Assembly (NCBI GenBank): GCA_002794785.1
Contig: NBBA01000011.1
Coordinates: 930,001-994,000 of the forward strand
Direction of reading: 5' to 3'
Origin: Coniferiporia sulphurascens
Taxonomy: Eukaryota; Basidiomycota; Agaricomycetes; Hymenochaetales; Hymenochaetaceae
DNA: 64,000 nucleotides
Below, one piece after another: positions 32,262 through 62,914 of this stretch. A model generated the notes under the pieces. That model did not search any database. It was given only the letters and a program-made list of their open reading frames with translations, and was not told the DNA's origin. Each line of letters starts with the position of its first letter. The stretch's first letter is position 1. Made by a program: the position numbers and the translations under genes.

Positions 32262-34860
32262 GTAGGGGTTATTCTGTATGTTTTGTACTATTGTCTGTGG
32301 GCTCCGACGTGCGCTTCGCGGTATGGATATGGGATTTTTTTAAATGGAAAAGATAATTATAACTACTAGCCTCCATTCGCGGATTTTTCTTGCGATCGTT
32401 TAAGGTATTTTATAAGTCGAATACATGGTATATGCAATGATAATAGCTGTAAAAGCGTTGCTTTGTAAGGGGTGTGTCGGAAGGACTTGTCTGAGTCCAT
32501 AGCTATGTCCGTGAAGCCGGCTGAAAGCCTGCACCTGCGACACTCTGAAGGCGTCACTAACGTCCCTCATGACCTCTATCCAGTGTAAGCGCTGGGTGCG
32601 GTCTTCCTGGGTATACACGTGCTGCGGCCTAACTCACTGCACTTGAGGCACAGTGTCCATCCTATCAGCTCGCACTGGGAGGTTGAATAAAAAGCGATAT
32701 GTATCATATTAGCTGCACGCGCAATCCAAGAGCATAGAAGCGGAAACCCACCGTTTGATTAAAGTGCGTACAGAATCCGCATCGATCATTATGATTGCGC
32801 TTAATCCGCTTCTCGGGGAACTCGAGTGACATCTTTGTGCTTCCTAGGAGGGTGGGAAGACTCGGACGGGCGGGAGGAGAATCAAAGTCCCGGCCGTAGA
32901 CGTTTGTAGAGATGGGGAAGGGAAGAATAGTAGGGGGGTCATCCGTCCAGGGCTGGAAGCGGGCCGACAACCGTGAGTGGTTGAAGTACCCTGCAAGGTG
33001 GGCGGGGCGTTCATTCACGGGAGCCGGCGCGCGAATATCCCAGGCAGTCTGAGAATGATGGATCGTCCTGAGTTTACAGGCGATGGTAGACATAGAAGGC
33101 CGCGCCGATGGCGAGCGAGCCCAGCAGCGGTTGCATAATTTCCACAAGTTCCGATGTAGATCAGACCACGAATTTGAATATTCCTCGGGAATTGTAGGAA
33201 GCCCGCCAGACATGATGGCGGAAACAATACCGATATCATTCTTGATATGAGAATACGGCGGCTTCTTTGTCAATAATACCTTTTTGCAGGAAAGAGTTGA
33301 GCACACACTCGGTAAATCTCTGGTACTATCGAACTACTTACAAGAACTGTCATCCCGAATGCCCACACATCAGACGCCTTTGAGTAAATGTCGGACTGCT
33401 GATCCATTGGATAGAGCAGCTCAATCGACGTGTACCGGATAGTGCCTCCGATACCGCCAGTTGTCGAACTGAAGCTGAAAGTTTTTGAAGCAGCGAGCAT
33501 ACGGGATATACCGAAATCGCAGATACGAGGTTCACCTGAAGAAGATATTAAGATGTTCTCCTGTTGTGGCATGAGAAGATAGTCTTTAGGTAATTCCGAT
33601 ATTGACACTGACAGGTTTAATATCGGAATGTATGATGCCTTTGTAATGAAGGTAGTCAACACCTTCCGCGACACACAGTACCTGTCATAAATACAGTATA
33701 AGTAAACATGCTTTTCTACTGCCTATGGAGTGTCGCTCACTAGTTTCTGGAGATCACAATCCGGATGTGATTCTAGGTACGTCAGGACAGTACCATTCTC
33801 CATCCACGCCGAAACCAGAGATGGATAATTGCTATCCTCAAAAAAGAGCCCATGAAGCGGGAGGATGTATGGGTGGTCCAATTTTGTCCATATGTATAGC
33901 TCCTTCACTAGTTTCTGGACGCCGAACGTTAGGCACGGGTAGTACAATTCATAAACAAGCAAGAAATGTGCACCTTTTGGAGTTTTCCGTCTCCCATCGT
34001 ATGCACACGAAGCCTCTTGATCGCTACCTTCAGGTTCCCGTTTCCACCTGATAGTACAACTGAGCAATAACCGGTAAAGATGTCGCTGTAGCCTCCATAG
34101 GCTTTCATTACAGGACTGATATCCCTGATCTTCCCCGTAAGGTTTAGATGTGCGATGCGAGCGAGGAGCCTCTGTAGCATCCCCTGGGTACCGGGCCGGG
34201 ATTGTGAGACCATGAGCCTTGTTTTGGTGGCCAGACTACATTGGCGTCCGAGCTTTTTACATTCCAGGCAGGCCCCTTTGAAGGTTAGGCGACACTACAT
34301 GAACGAGACATACATTCGGTCAGCAACGTTGAGACAGCCTCGAGGAGTCGGCAGACGTCTGACCTCCTGACGACGTAGCCTGCATTTTGCGCAGTGGTTG
34401 TCATTTCTATGCTTACCATTGGCTTTCGGTTGGTTCAACAGACGGATTAGCAGAGGATGAGACATTGTTTTCTCCCACTATAGCATGGGATGGGGATGGT
34501 TAACCGAAGTGTTGAGAGTCTGCTTCTCGCATGCACATCTTATGTAGCTGTGGTAAGAGTAGTTGGATCAATGATCCTGATTCCTCGGATGAACACAAGC
34601 ACGGCAGTGGTGCGGTGATATCCTTCTGTCATTGAGAACCGCAGGGGCAGTGCAAGTATAAAAAAAGGATGGGTAGGGCATTTTCAGTAAGTAGAAATAT
34701 ACCTCACATCCTGCATCGCCGACGCAGAAAAATCGGGACGGCAGGTGTAAGCAAAACCGATCCAACTTGTTGTGCGAATACAACCTTTTCTCTCCGCAAA
34801 TCCGGCGGGGCTGAAAAATAAAACCGGAGCTCAAAAATATCGGAAAATTCCGCTAACGGA
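32120..34860. repeat. Tandem segmental duplication, unit A
   Basis: This unit comprises the last exon and 3' flank of the methyltransferase gene, kinase K1 and the K1 upstream region. It matches 35140-37960 (unit B) in the same order and orientation. Similarity begins close to CCAGTGCGT (about 32126) and runs past the block TCCGCAAATCCGGCGGGG upstream of the kinase. Coding parts are the best conserved. Confidence 0.85.
32576..34213 (-). CDS. K1: protein kinase with C-terminal Zn2Cys6-like module
   Basis: Spliced from 34213-33974, 33914-33741, 33681-33613, 33560-33342, 33279-32752 and 32674-32576, giving 442 residues with all phases consistent. Kinase features: a Gly-loop-like GGYSDIFTG (about residues 40-48), the ATP lysine VAIK (Lys66), catalytic loop HSDIKPEN (Asp158, Asn163), DFG at 176-178, and SDVWAFGMTVLV in the C-lobe. 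It is therefore a probable active Ser/Thr or TKL-like kinase of a family expanded in agaricomycetes. After the kinase come about 120 polar residues, then Cys401, 404, 411, 419, 422 and 430, spaced C-x2-C-x6-C-x7-C-x2-C-x7-C as in fungal binuclear zinc clusters, preceded by basic KRIKRN. The last intron splits the cluster just before Cys411. Function and substrates are unknown. Confidence 0.88.
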
Positions 34861-35041
34861 CCGTCGGAACGACTTGAAAAAGGAAAATGTTGCACTGTTC
34901 CTACAACACCTTTTTTCGATTGCTCACTTGACAGAGAGAATATAATACATAGTGTGGAAATGCCACTCGGCAATACACATACATGTGTTTCATTAAAATA
35001 ACATTTTAACGGCGACGACACTTGGAGTAAGTGTCGGACTA
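34214..35041. promoter_or_regulatory. Upstream region of K1 with block shared by the kinase cluster
   Basis: No gene is seen. The stretch 34630-34825 matches blocks upstream of K2 (37690-37885), of K3 (40585-40780) and, inverted, of K6 (59940-60180). Shared landmarks include CGGTGCAAG-like and CGCAAATCCGGCGGG sequences. Conservation of non-coding sequence beside each duplicated kinase suggests co-duplicated promoter sequence. Any regulatory role is inference. Confidence 0.6.
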
Positions 35042-35125
35042 CTACCAGTGAGTGATCAGCTCAACTGACATAGCCCTACCGAACGGTGCAGTCGGTGCCA
35101 CTAGTTGTTGAGTGGAAGCTGAACG
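35042..35125 (-). pseudogene. Kinase exon relic
   Basis: Read on the minus strand, this short piece gives TFSFHSTTSGTDCTVR and, after a stop and a frame change, MSVELIT. It matches the activation-segment stretch of the neighbouring kinases (TFSFSSTTGGIGGTIR, then TSIELL). It is isolated, with no other kinase exon around it, so it is the remnant of a lost kinase copy at the junction of the tandem duplication. Confidence 0.6.
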
Positions 35126-35149
35126 TACCTGTAGCGGTGAGCACGCGAG

Positions 35150-35330
35150 ATAACCTAAGTCGCTATCTTGTTGCCAGTGCGTATGGTCTTTTCCTACTTG
35201 TCTACCGAAACTGACCTGATTCCGATTTGTATCCTGACTCAAATCAGCGAAACACTTCAAAGCGGAGACATAATTTCTTCTCGACTATGGCCGATCCTTC
35301 TTTGTGAACTAGGTCGGAGTAGTTCTGTAT
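35150..35330 (+). pseudogene. Duplicated 3' end of the EZH2-like gene
   Basis: A diverged copy of the final exon and 3' flank of the methyltransferase gene (32130-32330). The final residues LLDYGRSFFVN and the stop are still readable, followed by the same non-coding flank (CTGTATGTTTTGTAC). No upstream SET or CXC exons are present, so it cannot encode an enzyme. It was carried along by the tandem duplication that created K2. Confidence 0.85.
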
Positions 35331-35640
35331 GTTTTGTACCATTGTCTATGGACTCCAACTTGCGCTTCGTAATATGGGTACAGGTTTTTTTTTTTGAATG
35401 AAATACTGTAAGTCATTTTCTGACTCTATTCGCAGCATTTTTATACAGCCCTCGCGGCACGATCATTAAAGGTATTCTAGGGGGTCAGATGCATGGTATA
35501 CGTAATGATAGCTGTGAAAGCGTTACTTTGTAAGGGGTGTGCCAGAAGGACCTGTCCGAGCCCATAGCCATGTCCGTAAAACTGGCTGAAAGCCTGCACC
35601 TGCGACATCCTAAATGTGTCATTAACGTCCCTCACGACCT

Positions 35641-37274
35641 CTATCCAGTGTAAGCGCTGGGTGCGGTCTTCCTGGGTATGCACGTGCTGCGACCTAACTC
35701 CCAGCATTTGAGGCACAGTGACCATCCTACCAGCTCGCACTGGGAGGTTGAATAAAAAGCGATATGTACCATCTTAGCTGCACGTGAAACTTAAGAGCAT
35801 AGTAGCGGAAACCCACTGTATGATTATAGAAGGCACAGAATACGCATCGATCATTATGGTTGCGCTTAATCCGCATCCCGCGAAACTCGAGTAGCATCTT
35901 TGTGCTTCCTGGGAGAGTGGGAAGACTCGGACGGGCGGGAGGAGAATCAAAGTCTCGGCCGTAGAGATTTGTAGAAATGGAGAGGGGAAGATCAATAAGA
36001 GGGTCATTCGTCCGGGGCTGGTAGCGGGCCGACAACCGTGAGTGGTCGAAGTACCCTGCAAGGCGGGTGAGGCTTTCGTTCATGGGAGCCGGCGCGCGAA
36101 TATCCCAGGCAGTCTGAGGATGATTGATCGTCCTAAGCTTTAAGGCGATGGCAGACATGGAAGGCCGCGCTGATGGTAAGCGAGCCCAACAGAGGTTGCA
36201 TAATGTCCACAAGTACCGATGTAAATCAGACCACGTATTTGAATATTCCTCGGGAATTGTAGGAAGCCCGCCGGACATGATGGCGGAAACAATACCGATA
36301 TCATTCTTGATATGAGAATACGGCGGCTTCTTGGTCAACAACACCTTTTTACAGGAAGGAGTTGAGCATACACTCGGTAAATCTCTGGTACTGTCGAACT
36401 ACTTACAAGAACTGTCATCCCGAATGCCCACACGTCAGACGCCTTTGAGTAAATGTCGGATTGTTGATCCATTGGGTAGAGCAGCTCAATCGATGTGTAC
36501 CGGATAGTGCCTCCGATGCTGCCAGTTGTCGAGCTGAAGCTGAAAGTTTTTGAAGCGGAAAGTATACGAGAAATACCGAAATCGCAGATACGAGGTTCAC
36601 CTGAAGAAGATATTAAGATGTTCTCCTGTTGTGGCATGAGCAGATAGTCTCTGGGTAACTCCAGGATTGACACTGACAGGTTTAATATCGGAATGTATGA
36701 TGCCGTTGTAATGAAGGTAGTCAACACCTTCTGCAATACACAGTACCTGTCATAAATACGGTATAAGTAAACATGCTTTTCTACCGCCTATGGAGTGTCG
36801 CTCACTAGTTTCTGGAGATCACAATCCGGATGTGATTCTAAATACGTCAGGACAGTACCATTCTCCATCCACGCCGAAACCAGAGATGGATAGTTGTTAT
36901 CCTCAAAAAAGAATCCATGAAGCGGGAGGATGTATGGATGGTCCAATTTTGTCCATATGTACAGCTCCTTCACTAGTTTCTGGACAGAACATTAAGTAGG
37001 AGGGTACGGTCATAGACACACAGGAGATGTGCACCTTTTGGAGTTTTTCGTCTCCCATCGTGTGCACACGAAGTCTCTTGATCGCTACCTTCAGGTTCCC
37101 GTTTCCATCTGATGATACAACTGAGCAATAACCAGTAAAGATGTCGCTGTATCCTCCACAGGCTTTCATTACAGGACTGATGCCGTTTATCTTCCCCGTA
37201 AGGTTTAGATGTGCGATGCGAGCGAGGAGCCTTTGCAGTATCCCCTGGGTACCGGGCCGGGATTGTGAGACCAT
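35641..37274 (-). CDS. K2: protein kinase with C-terminal Zn2Cys6-like module
   Basis: Tandem paralogue of K1 with the same exon structure (37274-37035, 36979-36806, a short exon, a 219-nt exon, 36344-35817, 35739-35641) and the same predicted length of 442 residues. It retains VAIK, HSDIKPEN, ICDFGISR and SDVWAFGMTVLV, so it should be catalytically competent if expressed. The six cysteines of the C-terminal module keep the C-x2-C-x6-C-x7-C-x2-C-x7-C spacing. The residues between the first three differ from K1 (CVFCAFYNHT instead of CGFCTHFNQT), while the second half, CELVGWSLCLKC and GRSTCIPRK, is conserved. Keeping all six Cys after divergence suggests selection on the module. Confidence 0.88.
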
Positions 37275-37990
37275 GAGCCTTGTTTTGGTGGCCAGACTAC
37301 ACTGACGTCCGAGCTTTTTACATTCCAGACAGGTCCCTTTGGAGGTTGAGCGACACTACGTGAACGAGGCATAAATACGGTCAGTTACGTTGAGACAGCC
37401 TCAAAGAGGCAGCGGACGTCTGACCTTTCGACGATGTAGCTTGCATTTTACGCAGCTGTTATCGTTTCTACGCTTGCCGGTAGCTCTTGGTTGGTTCACG
37501 AGACGGATCGGCGAGGGATGAGGCATACTGCTTCACCCCTTTGTGATGTGGGATTGAAGTTGAAAGCCTGCTCCTCGCACCCACATATGAAGGTGTGATA
37601 AGTTGCAGTGTAGATCAATGTTCCTTGAATGCACACAGGCATCAATGATCCTTGAATGTGCACAGGCATGAGGCGGTGACTCTGTCCTTAAGACCTGGGG
37701 CGGTGCAAGTAAAAAATGAAAAGGACAGGTAGTCCCAGTCAATGGTACTGTACCACGGTACCTCCCATTCCGACTCAGAATTATCGAGGCTGCTGGCACG
37801 AGCAAAGTCTGACTTGCCGCTGAACACAAACATAAGCTCAAGTTTTCCTTCCGCAAATTCAGCGGGGTCAAATTGTTTGGAAACTCCAAAGGCCGGCCCG
37901 GGAAAGCTCTGTTACCGGCTGCAGTTTCGCGCGCGATTTTCCCCGCCAAATGATCTCGTGAGAAACTGTAATTCTTGACAGTACTGTAGT

Positions 37991-38206
37991 ACTATCGTAT
38001 GACCCCTATTACAAAGTCACATTTTCAGACAAAACTTGGGTTTCCAGCCTCCACATCGTGGGTATGGGGTCGAAAAAATCCTTCTGAACTGTTGTACAGT
38101 ATATAAACCTTTCTTGCCATTTTTTTCGGCAAAATTTAGAGATGCCTCCCGTTTGAGACAATTTTTTGTTTTGTAAGTGACTTTGTAATAGGGGTCATAC
38201 GATAGT
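37991..38206. mobile_element. MITE-like element with 30-bp terminal inverted repeats
   Basis: Positions 37991-38020 and 38177-38206 are perfect reverse complements over 30 bp. They begin ACTATCGTATGACCCC and enclose about 156 bp of AT-rich, non-coding sequence. Size (216 bp), perfect termini and no coding capacity fit a miniature inverted-repeat transposable element. The family and target-site duplication are not clear; a TA-type duplication is possible. It lies upstream of K2 and behind K3. Confidence 0.75.
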
Positions 38207-38548
38207 AGACCTGCTTGGCTGCAAAATCTTATTCCATAATTTCTTGAGAAAATCACGATTTTCCCACGAAAACGAGATACTGCTCAAAAAATTTTTACAG
38301 TAATAGTCGTAGTAAATTGGACCCTTTTTGGAATCGCAAAAACGTGCATGATGGATATAAAAGTCGACTCCGAACCTGGTCTAATTAGTTCCAAGTCCCT
38401 GAAGTCTCTTTAAACTAAGGACGTGGTCGGCTACGATATCGCGCGCGATCATGATTCAGTGTAGAGTGGGTGCTACTTAAATGACTCTAGCAATATCTAC
38501 TAGTTGTTATATCCACTACATGTAAATGCCAGTATCCACTTACAGCTA

Positions 38549-39945
38549 CTACCTTTGTGGGCTTCCGGCCGTACCTGCTGCGGGAAACTGGGGTTCTGAT
38601 AGCGATGCTCCGTCCTTCTCAAGCGGAGCCACGCCTTCCCGGGCCATTTGAGAGCGTAAGACCTCCCCGAGTTCTAAGACTATGGTGGACATGGAAGGCC
38701 TCGCAGACGGCGACAAGGCCCAGCAGCGGATACACAGCTGCCACAGATTTTGATAAGGCTCGGACCGTGCGCTGGAATTTTCATCAGGAACAGGAGGACG
38801 TTCTCCAGACACGATGGCAAACATAACTTCAGCATCTCCCTTAATATGAGGGTACGGGTCCTTCTTGGTCAACAATGCCTTTTTACGAAAAAGAATTGAG
38901 CATGATGCACTTGGTGGCCCCTGACATCGGTGGACAACTTACAGTAACGGACATTCCAAATGCCCACACATCGGAGGCCTTCGAGAAAATGTCGGGCTGC
39001 AGATCCGTCGGGCCAAACAGTTCAAATGCCATGTACCGAATGGTGCTTGTAATGTCGTTTTCTTCTAAGACAGTGTCGGACGTCCTTGAAATGCCGTGCA
39101 TGCGGGAAAGACCGAACCCACAAACACGCGGTTCACCCGAAGTAGAAACTAAAATGCTTGACTATAGTGGTATAAGGGATCAAAGAAAATTTAGATAAGT
39201 CTGGTATTGACACTAACAGGATTGATGTTGCAATGTATAACACCGTTGTTGTGAAGATAGTCAATCCCTTCCGCAATACGCACTGCCTGATGTAGATGCG
39301 AAGTGAGTGAAGGTAATCCATTATTTACGCATCACTGCTCACCATTTGCTGAATGTCGCATTCTGGGTCTGATTCAAGATACGCAAGGACAGTACCATTC
39401 TCCATCCACATTGAAACCAGAGAAGGGAAGTTGTCATCTCCAAAGAAGAATGCATGGAAAGACAGGATATACGGATGACCCAGTTCCGGCCATACGTGCA
39501 GCTCCTTTACTAATCCCTGAACACGAAATCAAACATGATGGGTAGTACAGTCATAAAACATGCGGAAGATATGTATGCACCTTTTGAGCCTTTGTGCTCC
39601 CTTTCATATCCATACGGATCCTTTGTTGAAGTTCGAGCTCGATGCCGAGACGGCGTCGGAGTTTGAATTACTTTTCGTAGTATTTTTTCCTGTTGTATGC
39701 GCGCTCGGTTTCCCTCGCGCGATTATCTACTGGTTAAACGATATACTTGGATACGGAGTGCATTCGCTCGCGCCGCGAATTGCTGAATTCCAACATCCTT
39801 TTGATCGCTACCCTCAAGCTCACGTTTCCATGTGGAATTACAACAGAGCAATAGCCGGTGAAGATGCCGCAGTAGCTTCCATAAGTATTCCTTACATGAC
39901 TGATGTCCTTGATCTTCCCGGGGCCTTGTTTTGGTGACCACATTA
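38549..39945 (-). pseudogene. K3: broken pseudokinase
   Basis: Kinase-like exons are recognisable: a start-less N-terminal piece (GKIKDISHVRNTYGSY), VAIKRM, an N-lobe exon, a catalytic-loop exon, and a C-lobe exon ending in the segment with KKDPYPHIKGDAEV. The catalytic loop reads HCNINP instead of HSDIKP and DFG is GFG, so catalysis would have been lost before the gene broke. Exon 1 is interrupted by a 170-bp insertion at 39625-39794 that introduces stops. Its 5' end joins directly to the upstream region of a K1/K2-type gene without a start codon. It is closely similar to K7 in inverted orientation. Confidence 0.85.
39625..39794. mobile_element. 170-bp MITE-like insertion in K3 exon 1
   Basis: The insertion is seen directly by comparison with the uninterrupted copy K7 (61860-61910). 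It is flanked by the 7-bp direct repeat ATCCTTT (39618-39624 and 39795-39801), which is present once in K7. Its ends, GTTGAAGTTC and GAATTCCAAC, are imperfect inverted repeats (8 of 10 match). A 7-8 bp target duplication and short inverted ends fit a hAT-like or related non-autonomous element. Confidence 0.82.
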
Positions 39946-40762
39946 CACTAGCGTCCGAGCGCTTTACATTCCATCCAGGTTCCTTTGGATGTTAGGCGAC
40001 ACTGAATAAGACGCACCTACGATCAGATACGTTGAGACAACCTCGAGGACTCAGCGGACGTCCGACCTTTTGACGACGTAGCTTGCATTTTACGCGGCTG
40101 TTGTTGCTCATGCTTGTCGGTAGCTTTCGGTTGGTTCAAGAGACGGATAGGCGGAGGATGAGGCATATTGTTTCATCTCACTGTAACGCGGGATTGAAAT
40201 TGAAAGCCTGCTCGCACGCACATATGCAGGTGTGAAAAGAGCGGTTGCGGTGTGAATTAATAATGATCTTTGAATGGACACAAGCTTGAGGCAGTTGACG
40301 CTCTATCCCTCTGCAATTAAGTGTGAATGTATGCGATTGGTAAGCGAGTGGTCAGCTCGCGGTGATCATATTTCCTTCTTAGATAGTCCACATCATAAAC
40401 TGTACAGTCGGGCGCATATAGTTGCGCCCGAGGCATCTGCGCACCTCAGTCCTTTTGACCCGGGCTGAGGTGAGCGAACTTCCATTCTTCTTTGTGTAGG
40501 CGCCCGTATTGACGCCGTATGATTGGATATTTGCACAGGTAGTTAATATCTAATACAGAGTCCTTTTGACCCGGGCTGAGATATTTGCACATTAAGACCC
40601 AGGGCGGTGCAAGAAAGAGACGAAAAGGATTGGAGGGTAATTACATTCAATGGTAGATTATACATGTAGTATACCTCCCATCTTGACTTATAGAACCCGA
40701 GGAGCAAAACCGCGGTAATACGTGACATTGACTCGGATTTTCCCTCCGCAAATCCGGCGGGA

Positions 40763-41668: not shown

Positions 41669-43385
41669 TTACAGATCGTTAGCAAATTGTTCAGACCATT
41701 TGCAAACTATTGTCTTGATTATCTCCATACATTGGATAGCAGATACAAGCATTGAGCAACTGGCAATATCAAGACCTAACTCATTCACACCAATCACACT
41801 ATGTCGCTCCTTAATTGGAGAGTGCAGAAGGCCATTTTCGCCGATATTGAATGTGTGCGGTGAGTCCACGTCCTGTTTGTCATATGCGAATGGCCTAGCT
41901 GCGTCTAAATAGCTCGGAAGAGGATAATAGAAAGAATGGACACTAGGGAGGATACCGAGGCCCAGGGGAGGCCATTCCGAGGGAGAGGCTGCTGTCATAT
42001 ACATAGTCCCGGGTTTGGCACGCGCTTGTAACATTATTAAGTTAAGCCATCGCACTGCGGACTTCGGGGTCAGTGACAGGGCGGACGGACCACCCCTCTT
42101 TGCATCTGGCCGAGTTGACAATTCGATTTTCCCGTCGGAGTCCTCGTGCCTTTGGAGGTGGCTATATGATGTTGATGTCTCCTGATGAGTCGAGAACGTC
42201 TCGAGAATTGAAATTATAGTCGACATGGAGGGCCGCTCCGATGGCACTTTGGCCCAGCAGCTCATGCATAGTTGCCACAAGAACTGATAGAGCTCTGACC
42301 ACGTTATAGAGTGTTCCTCAGGAAGGGGGGGAAGTACTCCAGACGTGATGACAGAAACAAGTTGAAAATCATTCCTGATGTTAGAATATGGTGGTTTCTT
42401 GGTCAATAATACCTTTTTACGAGAATAACTGACGTTTATTCAGGAGTCTCTGAGACCGGAGACTTATGCACTTACAAGAATGGTCATTCCGAATGCCCAC
42501 ACATCAGACGCCTCGGAGTAAGGGTCGGACTGTTGATCCGCAAGAGTGAGTAGCTCAATTGACATATACCGAACGGTGCCTTCAACCTTGCTGGTTGTCT
42601 GATTGAGGGTAAATGATCCGGAAGTGATGAACATGCGGGATATTCCGAAATCGCAGATGCGGGGTTCACCCGAAGATGATATTAAGATATTCTCCTGTTG
42701 TAAAGTGAGACTCGGAGGATGGACTTTATGTGATTCCAGCGTTGGCACTGACAGGCTTGATATCGGAGTGTATGATACCTCTTTGGTGAAGATAGTTGAT
42801 CCCTTCTGCGATATGCAGCAGCTGAAGAACATTCGGTGTAGATGAGGAAAATCTTTTAAAATCTGTGAACCACCATCTACCAATTGTTGAAGGTCGCAAT
42901 CCGGATGTGGTTCAAGATACTTGAGGACGGTACCATTCTCCATCCACATTGAAACCAGACAAGGGTGATGGTCGTCTTCAAAATAATAACCGCGAAGGGG
43001 GAGGATGTACAAATGGTCCAGTTTGGACCATATATGCAGCTCCCTTACCAGTTTCTGCGTACGGAAAGATAAAGATAGCCAATAGCGACATAAAATACGA
43101 AGGAGGACGTACATTTCGGAGTTTCCTGCCATCCATTATATGCACACGGAGCCTCTTTATTGCTACTTTCATATCCTTATCCGAGTCTTCGTCCGATGGC
43201 ACAGTGGAGCAATGGCCGGTAAAAATGTCACCGTAACCTCCATGGGCTTTCATCGCAGGGCTGATATCGCTGATCTTCCCTGTAAGATCTAGATGGGCGA
43301 TACGGTCAAGAAGCTTCTGCAATTTGCCCTTGGTAGTGGACTGAGACTGTTTGTCGGAGGCCGAAGTGGACCCAGATTTCCCCAT
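41669..43385 (-). CDS. K4: protein kinase without zinc module
   Basis: Six or so exons, beginning MGKSGSTSASDKQSQS (an earlier Met lies at 43400). The order is GGYGDIFTG, VAIKRLRVH, an N-lobe exon with KLVRELHIWSKLDHLYILPL, IIHSDIKP, ENILISSSGEPRICDFGISR, SDVWAFGMTILV and VLLTKKPPYS. The catalytic Lys, HSD Asp and DFG are all present, so activity is likely. The C-terminal roughly 150 residues differ from K1/K2 and lack the cysteine cluster. The closest relative in the window is K5, in opposite orientation, which shares the N-terminal STSASD/EQS segment and similar 5' sequence. Confidence 0.85.
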
Positions 43386-45871: not shown

Positions 45872-47258
45872 CTACGCGTTCGGATCCTTCCCGCGGAAGT
45901 CCGGGGTTGTGCCGTACGCGTTCCTTCCATCCGTATTATATCCCCACTGCGGGTACGCAGACGCCGACGCCGACGCCGCGCCCCCCTGCATCGACACCGG
46001 CAGCTGGCTCCGCGCGTTGTGGTAGTTCCCGCTCCCGCCGCTGCTGTGTATAAAAAAACAAGACAAGTTAGCGTGGGTCGAGCGTAACTCGAGACGTAGT
46101 GATAGGACGCACCCAGCGCCTGACAACCAATAATTCCCTTGCGCCTGCACCTCCGCCTGAGCTTGAGCCTGCGCATGGGCTTGAGCATGGGCTTGAGCTT
46201 GAGCTTGAGCTTGTGCGGACTGACGCGCGAAGGTGATCCCGAACGCTGTGTTCTGCGTCATCGACACGTCCGCTCCAGACGCCCTCGGGCTCACGTTCGC
46301 GTGTGAGTGTGAGTGTGGGTGATTGTGCTGTTGCGAGTGCGAGTGCATGTCGAAAGGGTGCGCAGAGAGCGGCGGGGACACCGTTACGCCCGTGCCCGTC
46401 GTCGAGGCGGGGCTGTGCGCCTGAGAATGCGGCCGCGAGTGCGACTGCGCTTGTGCCATCTCGGGGGTGCGCCGGAGCAGCTCGGACGTCGACGTCGACG
46501 GTGTCGGTGGTTGCTGATGCTGCTGAGGTTGGAGTTGGAGTTGTTGTGGCTGAGGTTGGACCTTCGTTTCCTGCTAGAGGGGTGTCAGATGAGGGTTTAC
46601 ACAAATCGACGACGAGAATAATTAACAGTACTCACGTCTCTCGCGAGGTCCATCAGAAACGGATCGACGTCAGACGTGCTTTTCTTCGGTATGCACGTGC
46701 TGCGGCCCATATCTCTGCACTTGAGGCACAGCGACGGCCCCACGAGCTCGCACTGACCAGGTTCAAACAAAAAGAGAGGCGAGAAAATTAGTAAGATGTG
46801 AGAAACGATGAGAAAGGAAGACGCACCTTCTGCTTGAAATGCGAGCAGAATCCACAGGGGTTCGGGTTACGCCTAGGCCTCTTCCTGCGCAAGAGGAACT
46901 CGATGGAGTTGGAGCTGTTCCCGCCTCCCGCACCCGATGCGCCGGCATAGTCCCCGCCCAAATTCAAGTCCAAACTCGAACTCGGATCGGGACCCGGGGC
47001 TGAGTTGGCGAAGTGACGGAGAGCGAGGAGGGCCTCTCTATCGGCGGCGAGCGCCTCTGCGGCGTTGGCGAGGGGCAGCAGCCTGCGGGCGAGGTCTGCG
47101 AAGCGTGCGGCGGCGGCGGCGTGGGCCTGAGCCTGGGAGTGGGCGTCGTCTGAATCCATTGGCATCCGTTCGGCGTCGGCGTTGGCGTTGGCGGGAGACA
47201 GACCGAAGATCGAGGATCGTGTATCGGGCGTTGGAGGCCGGAGAAGTCGGGGGGTCAA
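45872..47258 (-). CDS. Gln/Ala/His-rich protein with Zn2Cys6-like cluster, 4 exons
   Basis: Exons 47258-46827, 46752-46636, 46570-46113 and 46040-45872 give 391 residues; starts at 47165 or 47159 would shorten it to about 360. The N-terminus is Ala-rich and helical (AAAAARFADLARRLLPLA). A basic run RRKRPRRNPNP leads into Cys135, 138, 145, 153, 156 and 164, with the spacing C-x2-C-x6-C-x7-C-x2-C-x7-C of a fungal binuclear zinc cluster. A long low-complexity part follows, with QPQQ, HSHS and about ten QA/HA dipeptides. A basic zinc cluster plus activation-like Q-rich tail suggests a transcription regulator. The cluster, including GRSTCIP and the phase-0 intron before Cys3, is nearly the same as in kinases K1 and K2. 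Confidence 0.82.
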
Positions 47259-59635: not shown

Positions 59636-60614
59636 ACCAGTGAGAGTACTTACAGACGGCAGGAATGCACACACTTCCGCGTAGAAGGACTCGCACGAAG
59701 TAGAGTTCTACAGCTTGCCGATCCGTTGGGCCGCGAGCCGGCCGGCCGCATAGACTGGCACTGCCAAGTGATCGACGCAATCCGTCCCGTCAAACGAGTT
59801 CCAGTTTCCTTCCTTTCCTATATTTTTCTGTGGCTTTTTAAAGAGGCTATACAATAGTATACTCACATCTCGAGCAACCAGTTATATGAAGTGTGTGCAT
59901 GTATTTTTGCTTTTATCTGAGATTAAAAGTGGCGGGGCTTTACGGATTTTCGAGCTCCGAACAATTTGACCCCGTCGGATTTGCATAGGGAAAATCAGGT
60001 TTGTTTTTGTCACGTTTAGCGACACGTCAGACGATGATGTGTACCACTCAGTGGCACTTTTCGCTCATTCCAGCGGTCCCGATTTTTTCTAAGTCGAGTT
60101 GGGAGGTACACTACTATTGACTGCAGCTACCCTCCCTGTCCTTTTCACTACTTACTTGCACTGCCCCAGGGTCTTGAGGGCGGAAGGATAGAGTCACTGC
60201 CTCATACTTGTGTACATTCAAGGATCATTGATCCACACTGCAACCACTCTTTTCACACCGACATATGTGCGTGCGAGGAGCAGGCTCCTAACTTCAATCC
60301 CAAGTTATAGTAAGATGAAACAATATGTCCCATCCTCCGCCGATCCGTCTCTTGAACTGACCGAAAGCTACCGGCAAGCATAAAACCGACAACGGCTGCG
60401 CAAAATGCAAGCTACGTCATCAGAAGGTCAGGCGCCTGCCGATTCTTCGAGGCTGCCTCAACGTTACTGATCGCATGTGCGTCTCATTCATGTAGTGCCG
60501 CCTAACCTCCAAAGGGGCCTGTATGGAACGTAAAAAGCTCAGACGCCAGTGTAGTCTGGTCATCAAAACGAGGCTCATGATCTCACAATCCCGGCCCGGC
60601 CCGGTACCTAGCCC

Positions 60615-61221
60615 ATGTTACAGGAACTCCCCACTCGCATCGCCCGTCTTAATCTTACAGAGAAGATAAACGACAATTGTCCTGAAGGCTACAGTGACGC
60701 CTTTACCGGTTATTGCTCCGTTGTACCATCGGATGGAAGTGGGAGCCTGAAGGTAGCGATCAAGAGACTTCGTGTGCATACGATGGGAGACGAAAGACTC
60801 TAAAAGGTGCACATCTCTTGCTTGTTTATAACCGTACTGCCCGTACCTAACATTCGCCGGCGTCCAGAAACTAGTGAAGGAGCTGTACATACAGTATGAA
60901 CAAAATTAGACGATTCTTCCGTCCTCCCGCTTCATGGATTCCTTTTCGAGGATAACAACTATCCATCTCTGGTTTCGGCGTGGATGGAGAATGGTACTAT
61001 CCTAACGTGCCTTGGATCACGTCCGGACTGCGACCTTCGGCAACTGGTGAGCGACGCTCCATAGGCAATAAGGAATTATATTTGCTCACACTGAATTTAC
61101 GGCAGGTGCTGCGTATTACGAAGGGGATTGACTACCTTCATAGCAACGACATCATGCATTCCGATATTAAACCTGTCAGTGTCAATATCGGAGTTACCTA
61201 AACCTAAAGACTATCTTCTGC
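60615..61221 (+). pseudogene. K6: truncated K1/K2-type kinase
   Basis: Starts like K1/K2 (after MVSQ-like sequence whose ATG has become ATGATC) and keeps GYSDAFTGYC and VAIKRLRVHTMGD. The exon end is broken by an in-frame stop (CTCTAAAAG in place of CTCCAAAAG). The next exon has frameshifts after KLVKELYI. Parts of SLVSAWMENGTIL and DYLHSNDIMHSDIKP are readable. Similarity to the kinases then stops abruptly near 61221 within the following intron. DFG, the C-lobe and the cysteine cluster are missing. It is a non-functional relic. Confidence 0.88.
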
Positions 61222-61658: not shown

Positions 61659-62914
61659 ATAGAGTCACAACCCGCTTCTACTTCTGCTTCTGATGTACTG
61701 TCCCAGCCCGATACCGAGAACATATTACAGAGATTTCTAGCTCGCGTCTCTCATCTGGACCTTGCGGGGAAGATCAAGGACACCAGTCATGCAAGGAATA
61801 CTTATGGAACCTACTGCGACATCTTCACCGGCTATTGCTCTGCTGTACTTCCACATGGAAACGTGAGCTTGGGGGTAGCGATCAAAAGGATCCGTATGGA
61901 TATGAAAGGGAGCACAGAGGCTCAAAAGGTGCGTACATATCTTCCGCATGTTTTATGACTGTACCACCTACCCATCATGTTTGATTTCGTGTTCAGAGAT
62001 TGGTAAAGGAGCTGCACGTATGGTCGGAATTGGATCATCCGTATATCCTCCCTTTCCACGGATTCTTCTTTGGAGATGACAAATTCCCTTCTCTGGTTTC
62101 AATGTGGATGGAGGATGGTACTGTCCTTGCGTATCTTGAATCGGTCCCGGAATGCGACATTCAGCAAATGGTGAGCAGTGTTGCGTAGATAGTGCATTAC
62201 CTTCACTCATTTCGCATCTGCATCAGGCACTGCGTATTGCGGAAGGGATTAACTATCTTCACAACAACGATATTATACATTGCAACATCAATCCTGTTAG
62301 TGTCAATGCCAGACTTATCTAAATTTGATCCCTTATACCACCATAGTCGAGCATCCTAGTTTCTACTTCGGGTGAACCGCGTATTTGTGGGTTCGGTCTT
62401 TCCCGCATGCATGGCATTTCAAGGACATCCGACATTGTCTTAGAAGAAAACGACGTTACAAGCAACGTTCGCTACATGTCATTTGAACTGTTTGGCCCGA
62501 TGGATCTGCAGCCCGACATTTTCTCGAAGGCCTCCGATGTATGGGCATTTGGAATGATCGTTATTGTAAGTTGTCCACCGATGTCAGGGGCCACCAAGTG
62601 CATGCTCAATTCTTTCTCGTAAAAAGGCATTGTTGACCAAGAAGGAACCGTACCCTCACATTAAGGGAGACGCTGAAGTTATGTTTGCTATCGTATCTGG
62701 GGAACGTCCTCCTGTTCCTGATGGAAGTTCTGGTACACGGGAGCCTTATCAAAATTTGTGGCAGCTGTGTGTCCGTTGTTGGGCCTTATCGCCGTCTGCG
62801 AGGCCTTCCATGTCCACCGTAGTCTTAGAACTCAGGGAGGTCTTACGCTCTCAAATGGTCCGGGAAGGCGTGGCTCCGCTTGAGAAGGACGGAGCATCGC
62901 TATCAGAAGCCTAG
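61659..62914 (+). pseudogene. K7: pseudokinase copy with lost start codon
   Basis: Exons follow the kinase family order. The expected start codon position reads ATA (61659) before the segment ESQPASTSASDVLSQ. Then come GTYCDIFTGYC, VAIKRIRMDM, RLVKELHVWSELDHPY, IIHCNINP, GEPRICGFGLSR, SDVWAFGMIVIV and LLTKKEPYPHIKGD, to a stop after SLSEA. Catalytic Asp of HxD is Asn, the following Lys is Asn, and DFG is GFG; the ATP lysine is kept. The exons are otherwise open, so it may be a recently silenced or alternatively initiated pseudokinase. K3 is its inverted, more damaged copy. Confidence 0.8.

Follow-up and report, generated by a model that had tools for sequence, protein, structure and literature searches.

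Tandem kinases of Coniferiporia sulphurascens that carry zinc-cluster-like motifs at both ends and a tail that may derive from a neighbouring gene

In a 64,000-nucleotide window of the fungus Coniferiporia sulphurascens (positions 930001-994000 of contig NBBA01000011.1, in a genome of 39.3 Mb and 31 contigs), we analyzed two neighbouring kinase genes on the minus strand, termed K1 and K2. As read from the DNA, they are parallel, open tandem kinase genes with a zinc-cluster-like motif at each end; all coordinates below count from the first letter of the window. We hold, with moderate confidence, that K1 and K2 encode chimeric, probably active kinases, in which an N-terminal Zn2Cys6-type cluster was later joined by a captured tail module. 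In this view, an ancestral kinase gene would have received at its 3' end a copied segment of about 270 bp from a regulator-like gene close by, made up of the end of that gene's exon 1, an intron and exon 2; the gene with the added tail would then have been duplicated in tandem to yield K1 and K2. The first-pass observation is confirmed and its interpretation partly supported, and the picture we favour is that of a cluster-kinase that gained a second cluster from a neighbour gene.

K1 (34465-32576) consists of seven exons (34465-34364, 34294-33974, 33914-33741, 33681-33613, 33560-33342, 33279-32752 and 32674-32576) with 503 codons, and its frame is open through all of them. K2 (37526-35641) also has seven exons (37526-37425, 37355-37035, 36979-36806, 36746-36678, 36625-36407, 36344-35817 and 35739-35641) and 503 codons. 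The six introns of K1 are of the GT-AG type and in phase 0, at codons 34, 141, 199, 222, 295 and 471, and the six introns of K2 lie at the same codons. The Pfam Pkinase family (PF00069) scores 149 bits in each protein. Both translations retain VAIK, HSDIKPEN and DFG, and with them the catalytic lysine, the HxD motif, the asparagine and the DFG motif of protein kinases, which suggests that K1 and K2 are probably active; among kinases of solved structure, EGFR and RIPK1/RIPK2 are closest to them in sequence. The first-pass annotation had begun its models at an internal methionine (M63), which in K2 is the feature end of 37274, and had thus missed exon 1 and the N-terminal cluster.

The C-terminal cluster occupies residues 462-491 of both proteins, with the sequence CGFCTHFNQTCELIGWTLCLKCSELGRSTC in K1 (32615-32781, minus strand) and CVFCAFYNHTCELVGWSLCLKCWELGRSTC in K2 (35680-35846, minus strand). 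The six cysteines, which had been predicted at both kinase C-termini, follow the spacing C-x2-C-x6-C-x7-C-x2-C-x7-C exactly, and the basic run claimed to precede them is present as RIKRNHNDR in both tails. The cluster is split immediately before Cys3 by an intron (32751-32675 in K1; 35816-35740 in K2), and the K1 intron proved to be the GT..AG, 77-bp, phase-0 intron that had been proposed. Since the kinase C-lobe and the tail segment from Cys1 to Cys2 share one uninterrupted exon (33279-32752 in K1; 36344-35817 in K2), the fusion of kinase and tail does not depend on a splice alone. A splice-aware search for the six-cysteine pattern yielded 5 candidates in the window and 1 in total across 10 first-order Markov windows; on this count and on the genome search described below, we reject a chance origin of the spacing.

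A likely source of the tail lies about 11-14 kb away, measured from cluster to cluster. This gene, here called the donor (47165-45872, minus strand), has four exons (47165-46827, 46752-46636, 46573-46113 and 46043-45872, where the acceptors of the last two exons may be off by 3 bases) and encodes about 360 residues, with one cluster at residues 104-133 and a C-terminal part rich in Q, H and A. It is its cluster and its Q/H/A-rich part alone that make it look like a transcription factor or regulator. The cluster, located at 46856 and reading CGFCSHFKQK followed by CELVGPSLCLKCRDMGRSTCIPKK, is near-identical to the K1 tail. The donor segment homologous to the tails of K1 and K2 spans 46903-46630 on the minus strand and includes the end of exon 1, the intron at 46826-46753, exon 2 and the first bases of intron 2. 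In local DNA alignments, donor positions 46903-46630 matched K1 positions 32825-32556 with a score of 136 (maximum of 100 shuffles, 36), and donor positions 46892-46634 matched K2 positions 35885-35625 with a score of 112 (maximum of 100 shuffles, 37). The homology thus extends over about 270 bp of DNA, runs through an intron and stops at the 5' end of the intron that follows in the donor. At the protein level (BLOSUM62), the K1 tail scored 162 against the donor (z 28) and 70 against the N-terminal cluster of K1 itself (z 9.5), and the K2 tail scored 138 (z 26) and 78 (z 12.3), respectively. A search of the own genome with the donor cluster at expectation values (E) up to 10, in which only the best candidates were scored, returned four matches at three loci only, namely the donor, K1 and K2, and a search with the K1 tail under the same scoring returned the same three loci. 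A DNA-level copy of about 270 bp is the simplest account of this homology. We infer that the donor was the source and the kinase the recipient, given that no tail is present in the kinases found at other places in the genome and that the donor has nothing else in common with them.

Copying appears to have been followed by changes in the loop between Cys2 and Cys3, which holds two basic residues in the donor and none in the tails of K1, K2 and a C. weirii relative, P0002, described below. The donor loop SHFKQK has become THFNQT in the K1 tail and AFYNHT in the K2 tail, with loss of the loop lysines, and the proline of the donor's GPSL is replaced by tryptophan in both. At the basic or polar loop position of the PROSITE pattern PS00463, the donor passes, and the tails of K1, K2 and P0002 fail. 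The proposed comparison of the tail with Zn_clus, the Pfam family of binuclear zinc clusters (PF00172), gave no match at E up to 10. In view of this missing match and of the lysines and proline that the loop has lost but the donor retains, we doubt that the tail binds DNA. The first-pass interpretation, in which such a tail could take the kinase to DNA or chromatin, is supported in so far as two open tandem kinase genes end in a motif homologous to the cluster of a regulator-like gene.

For DNA binding, the N-terminal cluster makes the better candidate. It occupies residues 25-53, with the sequence CAKCRLRRQECRLTFKGACLECKKLGRQC in K1 (34238-34393, minus strand) and CVKCKLHRRKCRSTSKGTCLECKKLGRQC in K2 (37299-37454, minus strand), and is split immediately before Cys3 by introns at 34363-34295 and 37424-37356, respectively, so that exon 1 encodes its first part and the beginning of exon 2 the rest. 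Its second half lies in a single exon with the kinase N-lobe in both genes. Four other kinase loci of the own genome (L039, L040, L041 and L042) carry the same type of cluster before a kinase, with an intron at the equal position, and their clusters and those of K1 and K2 follow the spacing C-x2-C-x6-C-x5-12-C-x2-C-x6-8-C. On sequence grounds, the N-terminal cluster of K1 and K2 is one that a few cluster-kinase paralogues of the genome share. The L042 copy may be broken, because its open frame after the cluster has only 23 codons. Against the Zn_clus cut-off of 21 bits, residues 1-68 of K2 reached 22.7 bits and those of K1 scored 17.2 bits, while the diverged paralogue L041 reached the cut-off (25.8 bits), L039 scored 13.4 bits and L042 gave no match. 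The loop between Cys2 and Cys3 is basic in both proteins (KLHRRK in K2, with four basic residues; RLRRQE in K1, with three), and by the PS00463 pattern the K2 cluster passes and the K1 cluster passes except for the residue preceding Cys1. Since this basic loop is like that of DNA-binding Zn2Cys6 domains and is missing from the tail, the N-terminal cluster appears to be the likelier DNA anchor of the two. When solved structures were searched with the N-terminal piece, the two matches, APC11 at E 0.18 and an unrelated protein at E 0.49, were not significant.

The closest proteins to K2 come from Coniferiporia weirii, another hymenochaetoid basidiomycete, among which P0001 shows 81% identity across 80% of K2. 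The cluster at the end of P0002, CALCLHSGDCKLVEPSLCIKCMEMGYRTC, is related to that of the tails; its second gap has five residues (one lost), the proline is kept and the loop lacks a basic residue. P0001 ends with RCGFCTHFNQT and then VGLLL, that is, the first half of the cluster and then what appears to be an intron read as protein. In a kinase tree of 21 rows, K1, K2, P0001 and P0002 need a single change, the shortened P0003 adjoins them, and the K1/K2 pair has a support of 93/88. The tail is thus probably older than the split from C. weirii, and the duplication into K1 and K2 probably came later. The tail is thus shared by two C. weirii proteins, wholly by P0002 and in part by P0001; P0002 is the only protein with the full six-cysteine pattern among the 120 listed relatives of K2.

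Several other results weigh against a captured, working module. The 59-residue tails of K1 and K2 matched no Pfam family at E up to 10, the donor scored 9.5 bits against Zn_clus, below the cut-off, and only two of the five N-terminal pieces reached it (K2 and L041; not K1, L039 or L042), with K2 at full length also below it (17.4 bits). The branch joining the tail carriers is weak (77/26). One length-limited protein search with donor residues 80-160 gave three candidates, none at E 0.001 or below, a result that does not show absence elsewhere. In the annotated C. weirii proteins P0001, P0002 and P0003, the first residue lies at the internal methionine or downstream of it. A further protein of that species, P0056 (287 residues), has five of the six cysteines of the N-terminal cluster (the second is tyrosine), an acidic linker some 150 residues long and the beginning of a kinase domain. 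An AlphaFold model of P0002 (49 sequences, zinc absent) had a mean predicted local distance difference test score of 72.4, with residues 332-461, including the C-terminal cluster, below 50. Finally, the ratio of nonsynonymous to synonymous changes (dN/dS) between K1 and K2, by the Nei-Gojobori method, was 0.15 for the kinase domain, 0.45 for the N-terminal cluster, 0.33 for residues 59-94, 0.90 for the linker and 0.58 for the C-terminal tail (residues 450-503), and was thus higher in both clusters than in the kinase.

These values bear on the possibility that the fusion is real but the tail is a functionless, decaying passenger that survives through selection on the kinase, which we consider conceivable though rather unlikely. 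The tail and linker ratios, the loss of loop lysines and proline in both copies, the shortened gap in P0002 and the low confidence of its modelled tail would all fit such decay. However, no cysteine varies among the donor, K1, K2 and P0002 despite 19 of 30 varying columns, and the frames and splice sites of K1 and K2 are open, in contrast to further kinase copies of the window, which are interrupted by stops. The first-pass annotation had taken the six conserved cysteines as a sign of selection. In the K1/K2 tail core, 8 of 30 columns differ and the hypergeometric chance that all six cysteines are spared is 0.13, which, with the tail dN/dS, rules out conservation between K1 and K2 as a stand-alone proof; the argument gains strength when the donor is added (0.021) and then P0002 (0.0008), all nominal values from related rows and hence not true probabilities.

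An unlikely alternative is that translation starts at M63 and the last intron is retained, so that one cluster or both would be absent from the mature product, a plain kinase. The public models, which are automatic annotations, point this way, since P0002 and P0003 start at the equivalent methionine and P0001 ends as a read-through of the last intron would. However, M1 is the first methionine after an upstream in-frame stop, the public model of P0002 contains the full C-terminal cluster, and the N-terminal cluster scores above the Zn_clus cut-off in L041 and in the first 68 residues of K2. Its cysteines are also invariant among K1, K2 and L039, where 16 of 29 columns vary (nominal 0.0036, the rows being related).

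For the chimeric kinases that we favour, the N-terminal cluster is predicted to tether the kinase to DNA or chromatin, with nuclear location and zinc binding assumed. The tail, having no basic loop residues, might be a protein-contact or dimer module without DNA contact, or might be in slow decay. It is tempting to speculate, though we regard it as improbable, that the N-terminal cluster takes the kinase to DNA and the captured tail meets the partners or sites of the donor regulator. If true, a copied piece of a transcription factor would direct a kinase to the factor's own circuit, and the tail would compete with the donor factor or its partners, or bring about their phosphorylation. By far the least probable account, in which the tail arose within the protein as a duplicate of the N-terminal cluster, draws on the alignment of the two clusters (scores of 70-78) and their shared phase-0 intron before Cys3, but is disfavoured by the far better match of the donor (162 and 138), which holds at the DNA level through the intron. 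The intron position does not discriminate: the splice-aware scan, which covered the window and 20 own-genome loci (some of them overlapping it), detected nine clusters, and every one has its intron there.

As a rule, kinases gain access to transcription factors by docking or within cascades. K1 and K2 provide a testable case of mushroom-fungus kinases with a possible direct action at chromatin. They also offer a concrete example of how a gene may gain a domain when part of its neighbour is duplicated, in which donor, intron and segment boundaries can still be read. We know of no function for the kinase expansions of these fungi. Both clusters of K1 and K2 share the six-cysteine spacing of the Zn(II)2Cys6 transcription factors (PF00172), and the N-terminal one also their basic loop between Cys2 and Cys3; unlike in these factors, the clusters are fused to a kinase, and the C-terminal one has neither a basic loop residue nor a Pfam match. 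The C-terminal placement, which had been considered unusual, has a precedent in the C-terminal Zn2Cys6 cluster of yeast Ume6, going by a title in the references of PMC8224235. A structure search with the donor cluster gave CBF3 subunit B as the best match (E 0.67), which is not significant. By motif description only, K1 and K2 resemble the TKL/FslK kinases of Agaricomycetes, a lineage-specific expansion with a CW(X)6RPX motif, of which, according to PMC3937382, all but 16 of 241 members have no additional domains; unlike most of these, K1 and K2 each carry two cluster modules. A fungal kinase with a Fungal_trans domain, to which PMC2838846 refers once, likewise joins a kinase to a transcription-factor-type domain, but the domain is a different one, and the word "zinc" occurs 0 times in the text available from that source. 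Among the records listed, our literature search found no described kinase with a Zn2Cys6 cluster, which is no proof of absence from print.

Another open frame lies downstream of the K1 and K2 stops (32400-32633 and 35477-35773), with similar text in both (IEVMRDVSD.. and IEVVRDVND..), and belongs to the donor-homologous stretch. The window holds further kinase copies. A degenerate one lies between K2 and the donor (38624-40166, minus strand) and has a K2-like N-terminal stretch with stops. The gene at 42173-43349 (minus strand) is 40-47% identical to K2 (introns and exons), and the scan found no six-cysteine cluster in it. On the plus strand, the copy at 60325-61189 has exons like those of the N-terminal cluster and stops, and the copy at 61701-62878 lacks the N-terminal part. 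Upstream of K2, at 37990-38207, lies a 218-bp element resembling a miniature inverted-repeat transposable element, whose terminal inverted repeats are perfect over 31 bp; with 40 of 51 candidates scored, the genome holds about 40 places that match the greater part of this element at about 73-100% identity.

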